64,000 nucleotides of DNA from Rhodobacteraceae bacterium WFHF2C18 (GTDB taxonomy: Bacteria > Pseudomonadota > Alphaproteobacteria > Rhodobacterales > Rhodobacteraceae), in NCBI GenBank assembly GCA_002166865.1, contig NHTQ01000002.1:62001-126000 (forward strand), in the 5' to 3' direction. Under the pieces are notes generated by a model. It was not told the DNA's origin. It did not search any database and saw nothing but the letters and a program-made list of their open reading frames with translations. Numbering within the stretch: position 1 is the stretch's first letter; each line of letters opens with the position of its first letter. This document shows, piece after piece, positions 1,617 through 44,984 of this stretch. A program made the translations under genes and the position numbers.

Positions 1617-3080
1617 TCAGATCCCTGCCGGAATGTTGGTCGGATCGCGCTGCACCTGCTTGGGCGCGGTCAGTTCCTTCCACTTCGACAGGGCCTTGTG
1701 CGCCGAGGGGAAGGCGGGCCGCGGAACGAAACGCCCGCGCCCGGGCTGGGGCTGGCTGTTCTGCCCCCAGGCCCAGATCACCTCGCCGCGGGAAATGGTG
1801 TAGCGCGGCTGTGCGGTTACCTCGAAGCCCTCGAAGACGTTGTAGTCGAGGATGGAGTGGTGGTTCGAGGCGCTGATCGTCTTGGAGATCGCGGGGTCCC
1901 AGACGGTGATGTCGGCATCCGCGCCCTCCACCAGCGCGCCTTTCTTGGGGTAGATGTTGAGGATCTTGGCCACGTTGGTCGAGGTGACGGCGACGAACTC
2001 GTTCAGCGTCAGCCGCCCGGTCTCCACCCCGTGGGTCCAGAGAACCGCCAGCCGCTCCTCCAGCCCGTTGGAGCCGTTGGGGATCTTGGTGAAATCGCCC
2101 ACGCCCATGCGCTTCTGCTCGGTGGAAAACGCGGCATGGTCGGTGGCCACCACCTGCAGCGAACCCGCCTGCAGGCCGGCCCAGAGCCCGTCCTGATGGT
2201 CCTTGCTGCGGAAGGGCGGCGACATCACCCGGCGTGCGGCATGGTCCCAGTCCTTGTTGAAGTATTCGGACTCGTCCAGCGTGAGGAATTGCGCCAGCGG
2301 CTCACCGTAGACCCGCATGCCCTTCTGCCGGGCGCGCCGGATCGCCTCGTGCGCCTGCTCGCAGCTGACATGCACGATATAGAGCGGCACGCCGGCGGCA
2401 TCGGCGATCATGATGGCGCGGTTGGCCGCCTCGCCCTCCACCTCCGGCGGGCGCGAATAGGCATGTCCCTCGGGGCCGGTGATGCCCTCCTCCAGCATCT
2501 GCTGCTGCAGGTCGGCCACGACGTCGCCGTTCTCGGCATGGACCATCGGCAGCGCACCCAGTTCCTTGCAGCGCTTGAACGAGGCGAACATCTCGTCGTC
2601 CTCGATCATCAGCGCGCCCTTGTAGGCCATGAAGTGCTTGAAGGAGTTCACGCCCATCTCCACGGCGTCCTTCATCTCGTTGAAGACGGTCTCGTTCCAG
2701 CCCGTCACCGCCATGTGATAACCGATGTCGGTGCAGATCTGCGGCGCCGATTTCTCGTGCCAGTTGTTGATCGCGTTCTTCAGGCTCAGGTCGGCACCCG
2801 GCAGGCAGAAATCCACCAGCATGGTGGTCCCCCCGCAGGCCGCGGCCCAGGTGCCGGTCTCGAAGGTCTCCGCGGCGGTGGTCCCCATGAAGGGCATCTC
2901 CATGTGCGTGTGCGGGTCGATGCCCCCGGGGATGACATAGGCGCCCTCGGCGTCGATGGTCTCGTCGCCCTTCAGATCCTCGCCGATCTTCTTGATCTTC
3001 TCGTCCTCGATCTGGATGTCGGCCTTCCATGTGCGGTCGGCCGTCACCAGCGTGCCGTTCTTGATGACTTTGGTGGTCAT
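1617..3080 (-). CDS. hydA: Dihydropyrimidinase / D-hydantoinase
   Basis: This 487-residue amidohydrolase opens dihydrouracil or dihydrothymine to the N-carbamoyl-beta-amino acid, the second step of reductive pyrimidine breakdown. Zinc ligands expected for the family are visible: the DPHTH motif (His57, His59), Lys154 in SFKHFMAYK (the carboxylated lysine position), His181 in HAENGD, His237 in YIVHVS and Asp314 in ATDHAAF. Length is normal for the family. A purine-rich AGGAGG precedes the ATG. It stands downstream of the amidase gene on the same strand, separated from it by about 770 bp that contain a GIY-YIG gene and GC palindromes. Hydantoinases and dihydropyrimidinases cannot be separated by sequence alone; the adjoining preTA genes favour the pyrimidine role. 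Confidence 0.95.
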   Translation of the reverse strand: MTTKVIKNGTLVTADRTWKADIQIEDEKIKKIGEDLKGDETIDAEGAYVIPGGIDPHTHMEMPFMGTTAAETFETGTWAAACGGTTMLVDFCLPGADLSLKNAINNWHEKSAPQICTDIGYHMAVTGWNETVFNEMKDAVEMGVNSFKHFMAYKGALMIEDDEMFASFKRCKELGALPMVHAENGDVVADLQQQMLEEGITGPEGHAYSRPPEVEGEAANRAIMIADAAGVPLYIVHVSCEQAHEAIRRARQKGMRVYGEPLAQFLTLDESEYFNKDWDHAARRVMSPPFRSKDHQDGLWAGLQAGSLQVVATDHAAFSTEQKRMGVGDFTKIPNGSNGLEERLAVLWTHGVETGRLTLNEFVAVTSTNVAKILNIYPKKGALVEGADADITVWDPAISKTISASNHHSILDYNVFEGFEVTAQPRYTISRGEVIWAWGQNSQPQPGRGRFVPRPAFPSAHKALSKWKELTAPKQVQRDPTNIPAGI

Positions 3081-3143
3081 TGTGGGGGTCCTCCTGTCGT
3101 CACTGATCCCGGTCCTGCGCCGGGACCTGTCGTTTTCTTGCGG

Positions 3144-3165
3144 GGCCCCGGGTCAAGCCCGGGGC
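3144..3165. repeat. GC palindromic repeat, copy 1
   Basis: A 22-base imperfect palindrome with arms GGCCCCGGG and CCCGGGGC around a TCAAG-type centre. The same 22 bases recur exactly at 3761-3782, and their exact reverse complement at 3719-3740. Open frames across it read PGLTRG-like peptides, which I recall as frequent spurious peptides in alphaproteobacterial genomes, consistent with a dispersed REP-like family. Confidence 0.85.
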
Positions 3166-3358
3166 GGGGAGGGCGCGGACCGGCACGCCGGCGCCGCTCC
3201 GGACCGGGCCCGGTGCATGGGTGGCGCCCGCCCGCGACACTCCACGATCTCCGTCGTCTCCATCACCGCATGCATCGGCATATCGGCTGCGCACGTCCCG
3301 TCCCGGCCTTGAGCCGGGACTTCTATGCGCGTGGCGTCCTGCCATAGGATAACCCCGA

Positions 3359-3380
3359 GGCCCCGGGTCAGGCCCGGGGC
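3359..3380. repeat. GC palindromic repeat, copy 2 (one-base variant)
   Basis: The same 22-base unit as at 3144-3165 with one substitution in the centre (TCAGG instead of TCAAG). It ends 12 bp beyond the stop of the GIY-YIG gene. Confidence 0.8.
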
Positions 3381-3391
3381 GGGTGTCCTGT

Positions 3392-3676
3392 TCAGTCGGG
3401 TATATGCGCCGTGATGTCGTGCCACCCGGGATTGGCTTCGGTGACGAGGGCGAGTTTCCAGTCCCGCCGCCAGCGTTTGATCGAACGTTCCCGGCGCAGC
3501 GAGGTTTCGAAATCCTCGTGCCGTTCGAACCAGACCAGCCGCTTGATGTTGTATTTCGATGTGTGTTCGGAAAGTCCGGCGCGGTGTGCTTCGACCCGCG
3601 CGCGCAGATCGCGCGTGCGGCCCGCGTAAAGCGCACCGCCCGGACGCGAAGCCATGATGTAGACGAAATGCGCCAT
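3392..3676 (-). CDS. Small stand-alone GIY-YIG family nuclease
   Basis: A 94-residue protein that is a single GIY-YIG domain, as in UvrC-like and YhbQ-type small proteins. From the chosen ATG at 3676 it begins MAHFVYIMAS. The VYI element holds Tyr6, the YAG element Tyr17, the RTRDLRARVEAH helix carries the expected arginine near residue 27, and the RRERSIKRWRR helix carries the catalytic-type glutamate Glu63. A TTG at 3706 would add ten residues that do not look like the family. It interrupts the amidase-hydantoinase operon and is bracketed by GC palindromes on both sides and by duplicated amidase 3' sequence. Whether it acts on those palindromes, repairs DNA, or is only carried along cannot be told from sequence. 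Confidence 0.9.
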   Translation of the reverse strand: MAHFVYIMASRPGGALYAGRTRDLRARVEAHRAGLSEHTSKYNIKRLVWFERHEDFETSLRRERSIKRWRRDWKLALVTEANPGWHDITAHIPD

Positions 3677-3718
3677 GCCCCAGCCGTGCCAGGAAAGGGT
3701 TGCCAATCGGTAAATCCC

Positions 3719-3782
3719 GCCCCGGGCTTGACCCGGGGCCTCTGCGCCCGACCCTCGGGAGGCCCCGGGTCAAGCCCGGGGC
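3719..3782. repeat. Perfect inverted pair of GC palindromic repeats (BIME-like)
   Basis: Two 22-base units in opposite orientation, 3719-3740 and 3761-3782, separated by a 20-base spacer. The arms are exact reverse complements, so the 64 bp can fold as one long hairpin or as two small ones. It lies between the amidase stop and the GIY-YIG start. The right unit begins the segment that is duplicated at 3144-3283. Confidence 0.9.
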
Positions 3783-3905
3783 GGGAAGGGCGCGGGCCGG
3801 CACGCCGGCGCTGCTTCGGACCGGGCCCGGGTGCATGGGGGGCGCCTGCTCGCGTCACTCCACGATCTCCGCGGTCTCGACCACCGCGTGCATCAGGACG
3901 TCCGC
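3761..3905. repeat. Direct-repeat partner: amidase 3' end plus palindrome
   Basis: About 130-140 bp here match 3144-3283 in the same orientation, with the copies 617 bp apart. This copy contains the intact amidase stop codon, so it is the functional end of the gene. The two copies flank the palindromes and the GIY-YIG gene, like an att-type or tandem-duplication arrangement. Boundaries and identity were judged by eye; the right boundary is uncertain by about 10 bp. Confidence 0.75.
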
Positions 3906-5105
3906 GCCCGCCGTGGCCCATTCCTTCGAAATCTCCTCGGCCTCGTTGTGGCTCAGCCCGTCCACGCAGGGGCACATCACCATCGCCGTCGGCGCCACCC
4001 GGTTGATCCAGCAGGCGTCGTGCCCCGCGCCCGAGATCAAGTCGCGGTGCGAATAGCCCAGCCGTTCCGCCGCCCGGCGCACGGCCCCCACGCAGTCCGG
4101 GTCGAACTTCACCGGGTCGAAGCCGCCCACCTTCTCGAAGGCGATCTCCAGGCCCATGTCGTCGGCGATCTTGCAGCCCTCGGCGCGCAGGCGGTTTTCC
4201 ATGTCCTGGATCACCTCTAGCTCGGGCGAGCGGAAATCCACGGTGAAGACCGCCTTGCCGGGGATCACGTTGCGCGAGTTGGGGTAGATGTCGATGTGAC
4301 CGGCCGCGCCCACGGCGTGCGGCTTGTGGGACCAGGCGATCTGATCGACCTTTTCCAGCACCCGCGCCATGCCCAGCCCCGCGTTGCGGCGCATGGGCAT
4401 CGGGGTGGACCCGGTGTGGCTTTCCTTGCCGGTGATCGTTACCTGCGTCCAGCTCAGCCCCTGCCCGTGGGTGACAACGCCCACGTCCTTGCCCTCGGCC
4501 TCCAGGATGGGGCCCTGCTCGATATGCAGCTCGAAGAAGGCGTGCATCTCGCGTGTGCCGACCTCTTCCTCGCCCTTCCAGCCGATGCGCTCCAGTTCGT
4601 CGCCGAACCTCTTGCCCTCCGCGTCTTCGCGGTCGTAGGCCCAGTCCTGCGTGTGCATGCCGGCGAAAACGCCCGAGGACAGCATGGGCGGGGCGAAGCG
4701 CGTGCCCTCCTCGTTGGTCCAGTTGGTCACGACGATGGGATGCTTGGTCTTGATGTCCAGGTCGTTCAGCGTGCGCACGATCTCCAGACCGGCCAGCACG
4801 CCCAGCACCCCGTCGTAGCGCCCGCCGGTGGGTTGGGTGTCCAGGTGGCTGCCAACGTAGACGGGCAGGGCCTGCGGGTCGGTCCCCTCGCGCCGGGCGA
4901 ACATGTTGCCCATCTGGTCCAGGCCCATCGAAAGGCCCGCGGCCTCGCACCAGTCCTGGAACAGCGCCCGGCCCTCGGCATCGGCGTCGGTGAGGGTCTG
5001 CCGGTTGTTGCCCCCGGCCACACCCGGGCCGATCTCGGCCATCTCGTGGATGCTGGTCCACAACCGCTCGCCGTCGATCTTCAGATTCTCGCCTGGCGCC
5101 GCCAT
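3855..5105 (-). CDS. hyuC: Zn-dependent N-carbamoyl-beta-alanine amidase (M20/HyuC family)
   Basis: This 416-residue metallohydrolase is expected to cleave N-carbamoyl-beta-alanine or N-carbamoyl-beta-aminoisobutyrate to the beta-amino acid, CO2 and ammonia, the third step of the reductive pyrimidine route. Binuclear-metal features of the family are visible: His87 in GSHLDT, Asp98 in GGRYDGVLG, Glu132/Glu133 in NEEGTRF, His194 in HIEQGP and a late GHDA motif. I start it at the ATG at 5105 (MAAPGEN), preceded by a GGGGAG ribosome site; an upstream start would add ten atypical residues. It is transcribed away from the rutR-like gene, with a TTTACCA-type palindrome 84 bp upstream. Allantoate amidohydrolase is a paralogous alternative; the neighbours favour the carbamoyl-beta-amino acid substrate. 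Its last codons are duplicated downstream. Confidence 0.92.
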   Translation of the reverse strand: MAAPGENLKIDGERLWTSIHEMAEIGPGVAGGNNRQTLTDADAEGRALFQDWCEAAGLSMGLDQMGNMFARREGTDPQALPVYVGSHLDTQPTGGRYDGVLGVLAGLEIVRTLNDLDIKTKHPIVVTNWTNEEGTRFAPPMLSSGVFAGMHTQDWAYDREDAEGKRFGDELERIGWKGEEEVGTREMHAFFELHIEQGPILEAEGKDVGVVTHGQGLSWTQVTITGKESHTGSTPMPMRRNAGLGMARVLEKVDQIAWSHKPHAVGAAGHIDIYPNSRNVIPGKAVFTVDFRSPELEVIQDMENRLRAEGCKIADDMGLEIAFEKVGGFDPVKFDPDCVGAVRRAAERLGYSHRDLISGAGHDACWINRVAPTAMVMCPCVDGLSHNEAEEISKEWATAGADVLMHAVVETAEIVE

Positions 5106-5188
5106 CGCCGTCTCCCCTGTCGTTCCTTTTAGCACAAGGGCGCACGCCGCGCACTGGCAGGAGGCGCAGCCCCGGCCCTTGCCGCTTT

Positions 5189-44923: not shown

Positions 44924-44984
44924 GTCCCGGGCTTGACCCGGGACCTCATGGTTCGGCCTGAGGCCCCGGCTCGGGGGCCGGGGC
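44924..44984. repeat. Second inverted pair of GC palindromic repeats, upstream of the MAPEG gene
   Basis: One unit at 44924-44944 (arms GTCCCGGG and CCCGGGAC around CTTGA) and one at 44962-44984 (GGCCCCGGC / GGGGCC arms, centre diverged), 17 bp apart. They belong to the same family as the repeats at 3144-3782 but are more degenerate, and no nuclease gene lies beside them. Confidence 0.75.

Follow-up and report, generated by a model that had tools for sequence, protein, structure and literature searches.

In the 64,000-nucleotide stretch of DNA analysed here (the window), a gene for a GIY-YIG nuclease of 94 amino acids lies between REPs. Outward-pointing tags on these repeats, type-specific pairing of nuclease and repeat, recurrence of the arrangement across phyla, and the replacement of a whole unit by a single palindrome were all observed in the genomes compared. 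The pairing of nuclease and repeat can be taken as nearly certain. The arrangement is probably that of a REP system (REPtron) in which a GIY-YIG nuclease takes the place of the RAYT transposase.

The source genome (3.36 Mb) was taken to belong to Roseovarius, and the genus set comprised 84 genomes. On the minus strand, an amidase gene is followed by the GIY-YIG gene and then by an amidohydrolase gene. The features of the window are as follows.

1617–3080, minus strand: amidohydrolase (hydantoinase-like), the host gene downstream (PF01979, E = 9.9e-25)
3144–3283, minus strand: outer copy, made up of amidase tail, intergenic DNA, and a palindrome (tail copy at about 3237–3284, stop lost)
3145–3165, minus strand: type A palindrome within the duplicated segment
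3300–3320, minus strand: second palindrome variant, GTCCCGGccttgaGCCGGGAC, which closes the unit
3360–3380, minus strand: type A palindrome downstream of the nuclease
3392–3676, minus strand: GIY-YIG nuclease gene, 94 amino acids, clade A (PF01541, E = 1.8e-11)
3715–3786, minus strand: REPIN-like inverted palindrome pair upstream of the nuclease (palindromes 3719–3739 and 3762–3782)
3761–3905, minus strand: inner, original copy with the last amidase codons, intergenic DNA, and a palindrome
3855–5135, minus strand: hydantoinase/carbamoylase-family amidase, the host gene upstream (NF006769, E = 8.7e-208; TIGR01879, E = 1.1e-116)
44924–44944, plus strand: single palindrome of related sequence, GTCCCGGGCTTGACCCGGGAC, away from the unit

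The nuclease ORF was confirmed as genuine: it has an ATG at 3676, a stop ending at 3392, and a PF01541 match. Five perfect palindromes with 8-bp arms and a 5-nt loop surround it (3145–3165, 3300–3320, 3360–3380, 3719–3739, and 3762–3782). An earlier reading of this DNA from its sequence alone (the sequence-only reading) had described a 94-residue GIY-YIG gene and several palindromes between direct repeats, which the Pfam match and the palindrome coordinates confirmed. The two 28-bp arms of the upstream pair (3715–3742 and 3759–3786) are 100% complementary and 16 nt apart. A similar inverted pair precedes the clade A nucleases of three other genomes (G011, G025, and G049), and the variant that closes the unit in the window is also its downstream end in these three. 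By exact pattern, the source genome contains 19 type A palindromes, four of them at the nuclease locus. This genome contains one small GIY-YIG match, and a second match lies inside a 628-amino-acid frame, presumably UvrC.

A profile search identified 24 nuclease genes in 23 of the 84 Roseovarius genomes, and a palindrome occurred within 500 bp of the nuclease at every one of these loci (19 + 5; weak at L028). Three nuclease clades matched three palindrome types, namely A (GCCCCGGGcttgaCCCGGGGC), B (GTCCCGGacttgaTCCGGGAC), and C (ATCCTCGGGcttgaCCCGAGGAT with ATCGTCCGGcttgaCCGGACGAT), whose tags were CCC(G) (44 contexts), CGCA (8), and CGTC (33), respectively. Across the 84 genomes, the median numbers of cognate palindromes per genome were 10 (A), 36 (B), and 7 (C) in carriers, against 0 in the 61 non-carriers. 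Medians for non-cognate combinations of clade and type were 0–3, and the genome-wide count of a reversed control pattern yielded zero matches. With a threshold of at least five copies and without correction for phylogeny, Fisher tests gave p values of 5.6e-7, 1.7e-4, and 3.1e-8 for A, B, and C, respectively. The phylogenetic tests were based on one gene tree (amidase; 50 of the 84 genomes and 16 of the 23 carriers, G009 with an internal stop). Phylogenetic regression supported types A and C both with a fitted lambda (p = 1.6e-6 and 4.8e-8) and with lambda set to 1 (p = 5.9e-7 and 2.6e-8), and the latter also when the copies beside the gene were subtracted (p = 7.9e-6 and 4.7e-5); the type B association was not significant (p = 0.12). 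Independent pairs lay in the expected direction in 4.9 of 6 cases for A, 0.5 of 3 for B, and, for clade C, 4.6 of 6 at the five-copy and 2.8 of 6 at the three-copy threshold. None was reversed, the pairs per type were too few to reach significance, and a pooled pairs test was not significant either (4.2 for and 0.5 against in 10, median p = 0.22).

Carriers and repeats did not coincide everywhere. Among the 61 non-carriers, 37 contained none of the three patterns and eight contained at least five repeats in sum; repeat-rich examples were G044 and G063 (25 and 19 type A), G034 (16 type B), and G053 and G037 (13 and 12 type C). No nuclease was detected in the type A-rich G044 and G063, nor any remnant in the five stretches read (L084–L088), and recent loss of the enzyme is possible there. 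One genome (G052) has 46 type B palindromes, and its sole nuclease gene belongs to clade C and contains an internal TGA; this gene (L023) and another of clade C (L027, in G035) each have one in-frame TGA and are probably decaying. Repeat-poor carriers were also seen: G025 contains no exact type A palindrome and G003 one type B palindrome, and in G019 and G033 the palindromes lie only beside the nuclease gene.

Beyond the genus, a peptide-pattern search that was blind to palindromes gave 535 loci, of which the best 80, named and spread over many phyla, were used. At these 80, the density of hairpins was 4.15 per kb up to 250 bp from the nuclease, compared with 0.42 per kb at a distance of 0.8–3 kb. 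Under a narrower palindrome definition, 61 of the same 80 loci had a palindrome upstream, 61 downstream, 52 on both sides, and 10 on neither. A palindrome was present in 116 of 156 nuclease flanks versus 43 of 235 flanks of other genes (p = 3e-29). A second set was drawn from 397 phylum genomes, of which 113 had a match, and consisted of 67 loci, one per genome, chosen by rank and hence non-random. Palindromes were found at 52 of them (on both sides at 38), none qualified at the remaining 15, and 90 of 133 windows contained a palindrome as against 15 of 134 controls. The association between GIY-YIG genes and such palindromes that the sequence-only reading had proposed surveying was found in both sets. 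Chance hairpins in GC-rich DNA were rejected as an explanation by the flank and window controls and by the zero counts of the reversed pattern.

Where the outermost tags could be read, they pointed outward in a ratio of 27:3 upstream and 29:3 downstream; about half were unreadable. The similarity of the nucleases was correlated with that of the palindrome arms (Mantel r = 0.19, p = 0.001 for 70 loci; r = 0.36, p = 0.0005 for a 30-locus subset), and arm similarity was flat (0.56–0.61) below 60% nuclease identity and 0.76 above it, so that this signal comes from close pairs. Among 50 named genomes, the 16 with ATTCCYGC-flanked nucleases contained a median of nine further copies of this palindrome, compared with none in the other 34 (p = 2.5e-4). 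There were exceptions: three of the 16 have no copy outside the locus, and five of the 34 (L238, L239, L247, L258, and L261) contain 7–65 copies without such local flanks. A 2.5-Mb Dehalococcoidia MAG (L214) harbours 656 copies of the ATTCCYGC palindrome, and its nuclease is flanked by the same repeat. Double-tagged single palindromes stand beside the nucleases of L389 and L365; that of L389 is nested in a longer palindrome and is perhaps a target or a scar. The suggestion that REP-like palindromes are tied to a GIY-YIG gene much as they are to RAYT genes is thus well supported by the flanking palindromes, the type-specific genome-wide association, and the recurrence across phyla.

In the enzyme itself, residues Y6, Y17, R27, H31, E63, and N82, which we take to be catalytic, were invariant in 39 aligned relatives, and because these conserved residues are intact, the protein is likely to be an active nuclease. 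Its AlphaFold2 model had a mean pLDDT of 95.5. The best solved match in Foldseek was the UPF0213 protein 1zg2 (E = 2e-4), followed by Slx1 and the UvrC N-terminal domain (E = 0.1 or weaker), and a profile search of solved sequences returned 1zg2, 1ywl, and UvrC. The small UPF0213 GIY-YIG proteins (PDB 1zg2 and 1ywl) are therefore nearest in both sequence and fold, but they are structural-genomics entries, and a link to repeats was absent from the search results. Slx1 and the UvrC N-terminal domain share the GIY-YIG fold, and Slx1–Slx4 processes branched DNA according to PDB titles. A Pfam search of the window protein found the GIY-YIG domain only, and an enzyme with this single catalytic domain may recognise its DNA by shape together with a small number of bases. 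To our knowledge, Slx1 and UvrC are multi-domain repair enzymes that are not tied to repeats. The Y1 (RAYT-type) transposase PF01797 was absent from the source genome and from 20 of the 23 nuclease carriers, so that RAYT was not supported as the acting enzyme. A phage origin was likewise rejected: a search of 50,697 phage records with the window protein gave nothing at E = 1e-6. Where family members bore an annotation in 33 plasmid records, it read "excinuclease ABC subunit C", "GIY-YIG nuclease family protein", or "hypothetical protein".

Within the genus, nucleases were found at two operon junctions. Nucleases of clade A (in four genomes: the source genome, G049, G025, and G011) and clade B (in five genomes: G012, G006, G008, G003, and G065) share the amidase–amidohydrolase junction, and in five of the nine the first palindrome lies 20 bp after the amidase stop, a hint that enzyme and repeat diverged jointly at this site. 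The palindromes of G008 and G003 are few or degenerate at this junction. Between the amidase stop and the nuclease of G012 (L105), five type B palindromes stand in tandem in one orientation with a 45-bp period. All 11 clade C genes lie at one other operon junction, after a frame that by inspection reads as ABC-transporter permease-like. This second junction was empty in 16 of 40 regions (22–93 bp, no complete palindrome) and held unrelated DNA in 13 of 40. The flanks of the empty G040 and G005 junctions are 85–91% identical to those of the occupied G035 junction, and the empty G001 junction retains half a palindrome with its tag, plausibly a deletion scar. Most units look vertically inherited, with losses. 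The amidase neighbourhood was rejected as the driver of the association, given that the clade C genes belong to another operon and the clade A genes of G046 and G023 lie off the amidase contig; the amidase of G076 and G081 was not located. Unrelated DNA with small open frames was also seen at both places (L031, L035, L036, L040, L042, L049, and L055 at the amidase junction; L155, L162, L172, L173, L178, and L180–L183 at the clade C junction), and both junctions have the appearance of hot spots at which small genes insert.

The direct duplication that encloses the GIY-YIG gene and its palindromes in the window, which the sequence-only reading had pointed out, is real. It consists of direct repeats at 3137–3213/3754–3830 (91%) and 3206–3287/3824–3905 (80%), offset by 617–618 bp. 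Alignment of 3144–3283 with 3761–3905 gave 123 identical columns of 145, with five gap positions, and beyond about 3138–3287 the match fell to at most 4 of 10 per 10-bp step. The outer copy keeps 38 of the 48 nt of the amidase tail (the last 15 codons and the stop), and the alignment also bore out the change of the stop from TGA to TGT. The local alignment score of this tail copy was 49, too high for chance, since 50 shuffled versions of that intergenic DNA reached at most 24. A strong amidase match was present in 51 of 60 genus genomes, and the junction was examined at 30 loci and in a second set of 20 stretches, four of which had no readable tail (G003 was in both sets, and G065 was outside the 60). 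In 14 of the 30 loci, the two genes were separated by 43–125 bp without a palindrome; the nuclease was present in four, and the remaining loci had other DNA, no anchor, or were unusable (L044). The plain junction in relatives for which the sequence-only reading had called was thus found, but a clear tail copy was found in none of the eight other junction carriers, seven of which scored below their own shuffle maximum, G003 being marginal (22 versus 19). Since these eight nuclease units lack a clear tail copy, the duplication is private, a later rearrangement in its own lineage and no part of the insertion of the unit. The proposal that an insertion had restored the gene end and left the old end as an att-like remnant was accordingly rejected, and of the earlier interpretation only the pairing of nuclease and REP-like palindromes stood. 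The likely route would be that tail and unit were duplicated in tandem and that one nuclease copy, the second, was then lost between identical palindromes.

Signs of mobility were sought by comparing sites with and without the unit. Outward-facing inverted REPs bound the unit, that is, terminal inverted repeats are present. In Sphingobium, the unit occurs on seven plasmids, of which four were read and the other three are 100% identical to one of these. It has the form CGTC-ACCCCGGG-CTTGA-CCCGGGGT-CCCGCT, nuclease, and mirror image, and sits between fnrL and a response regulator gene. In TomTYG64 and TomTYG74, which are about 90% identical there, CGTC-palindrome-GACG replaces the whole unit, the arms of the TomTYG74 palindrome being imperfect; the palindrome was absent from this site in TomTYG72, TomTYG65, and S. 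herbicidovorans. Such a palindrome is what deletion between equivalent arms would leave, or it would be an uninvaded target, and single-palindrome products could also arise by replication slippage without any enzyme. The same relation was seen at another site in Roseovarius, between a pair in G018 and a single, slightly degenerate palindrome in G055; the G018 pair is not cleanly absent in neighbours, and part of G035 consists of N there. Among the Sphingobium plasmids L304, L306, L311, and L312, the annotation of this small gene varies between hypothetical protein and excinuclease ABC subunit C; that of TomTYG73 (L312) is one base short compared with the others and unannotated.

Between two transporter genes of Roseovarius, a pair was present in G036, G037, G053, and G082 and absent in seven other genomes, and no target duplication could be read from this comparison. 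No target-site duplication was found between occupied and empty sites of Roseovarius clade C and Sphingobium, whose flanks are 80–91% identical, a level at which a duplication might escape notice if it were old or very short. No polymorphism of the unit was seen within a strain. A 48-kb comparison of six Sphingobium plasmids showed a REP pair at the ccoP–fixG junction in all six, whereas at the fixI–monooxygenase junction three strains had such a pair, two had a palindrome pair of unrelated sequence, and one had neither; no clean insertion with a duplicated target was found among them.

We propose that a single-domain GIY-YIG enzyme is encoded between outward-tagged REPs that resemble terminal repeats bounding a small element. 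The same REPs occur elsewhere in the genome as gene-less inverted pairs, which are REPIN-like and would be non-autonomous, and as single palindromes. A REP would extrude as a hairpin or cruciform at replication, and the nuclease would recognise the folded arm and its tag and nick there, as its structural cousin Slx1 does on branched DNA. Through host repair of the break, REP pairs would be copied into new junctions, as would, on rare occasions, the nuclease unit; alternatively, repair would delete the DNA between equivalent arms so that one palindrome remains. The substrate, the nicking, and the spread by nick repair are steps that we infer. That the nuclease acts on its REPs is very probable; that it also spreads them is somewhat more likely true than false.

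A host-domesticated activity, in which the nuclease cuts or resolves hairpins that stall replication, mobility is rare or past, and the pairing reflects co-evolution with the substrate, is unlikely. In its favour, the source genome has a single copy of the gene, inheritance appears vertical at the two fixed genus loci, Slx1 and UvrC are among the structural neighbours, and a study of DNA repair in Caulobacter (PMC1839093) discusses a trio of small COG2827 genes, of which one bears an SOS box. Yet a pure house-keeping enzyme would have no need for a gene framed by outward-tagged REPs, and the nuclease was not found in 61 of the 84 genus genomes. It is rather improbable that the gene is a free-standing homing endonuclease that invades REP pairs of other origin by cutting and repair. 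GIY-YIG enzymes are classical homing nucleases, the gene does lie inside an otherwise plain REP pair, and the double-tagged palindromes of TomTYG64 and TomTYG74 at the orthologous site could be uninvaded targets; however, homing predicts that the gene is independent of REP number, whereas for types A and C this number tracks the cognate gene, and homing GIY-YIG enzymes carry a DNA-binding domain, whereas the 94-amino-acid protein is a catalytic domain only. A passenger role, with REPs moved by RAYT or an IS and the nuclease carried in a REP-rich operon hot spot, was already disfavoured and is hardly credible: hairpin-rich intergenic DNA attracts insertions, small open frames of unrelated sequence occupy both genus junctions in other genomes, and the REP-rich non-carrier G063 has Y1-transposase fragments, but the Y1 family, to which the search was confined, is lacking in the source genome and most carriers, and type-specific pairing, cross-phylum recurrence, and the scarcity of palindromes beside other genes all argue against it.

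If the nuclease does run a REP system, its best-known analogue is the RAYT/REP pair (PMC8266576, PMC3116915). From the parts of the papers accessible, the enzyme gene there is flanked by REPs, non-autonomous REP pairs lie elsewhere, and enzyme and REP have co-evolved (PMC8266576, PMC3733652). The two systems are alike in that the enzyme gene is flanked by its own inverted REPs and gene-less REP pairs occur elsewhere. They differ in the enzyme, RAYT being an HUH/Y1 tyrosine transposase and the window enzyme a GIY-YIG nuclease of unrelated fold, and in the tags, which are GTAG there and CCC(G), CGCA, CGTC-type, or lineage-specific here. We know of no strand-transfer chemistry for the GIY-YIG class. 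The likeness to RAYT/REP is one of design, and the enzyme and tag set the present system apart.

A closer match in the repeats is offered by the CGTC REPs of Di Nocera et al. (2013, PMC3733652), which, in the portion of that paper available, have a stem of 8–9 bp, a loop of 4–5 nt, and head-to-head dimers, are found mainly in alphaproteobacteria, and "apparently lack a dedicated transposase"; no gene for a tyrosine transposase was found framed by these repeats. The type C, Sphingobium, and ATTCCCGC repeats match these in tag and form. Types A and B agree with them in stem and loop, yet their tags are CCC(G) and CGCA, which makes these two relatives rather than strict members; the palindromes of the window itself have the stem, loop, and head-to-head dimers of the CGTC REPs but not their tag. 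Br-REP1 of Bradyrhizobium has the palindrome CCGGAATCTCGAGATTCCGG, and no enzyme is named for it in the accessible part of the source (PMC5082802). This palindrome or a close variant lay within 250 bp of the nuclease at six of eight Bradyrhizobium loci among the best 80 of 535 (L221, L222, L224, L232, L234, and L252). A word search of a 2025 REP survey (PMC12306157) found mention of neither the nuclease nor RAYT, and among the listed matches of open-licence papers, none paired a GIY-YIG enzyme with REP or REPIN repeats, as judged by titles and the beginnings of abstracts.

It is slightly more likely than not that GIY-YIG nucleases are the missing dedicated enzymes of a large class of multi-phylum palindromic repeats, the CGTC REPs and relatives such as Br-REP1, in a second kind of REP system that would have evolved independently and would move by nuclease cutting and host repair, not by HUH chemistry. 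REPs are common in bacterial genomes. As far as the available literature goes, GTAG REPs have RAYT as their proposed mobilising partner, and CGTC REPs now gain a concrete candidate enzyme. The clade of the enzyme predicts the sequence of the repeat, so that the question of the partner can be tested in vitro at once. A likely role is thereby given to a family of small GIY-YIG genes, and if the proposal is true, nested REP-type replicators would have arisen with an unrelated enzyme fold.
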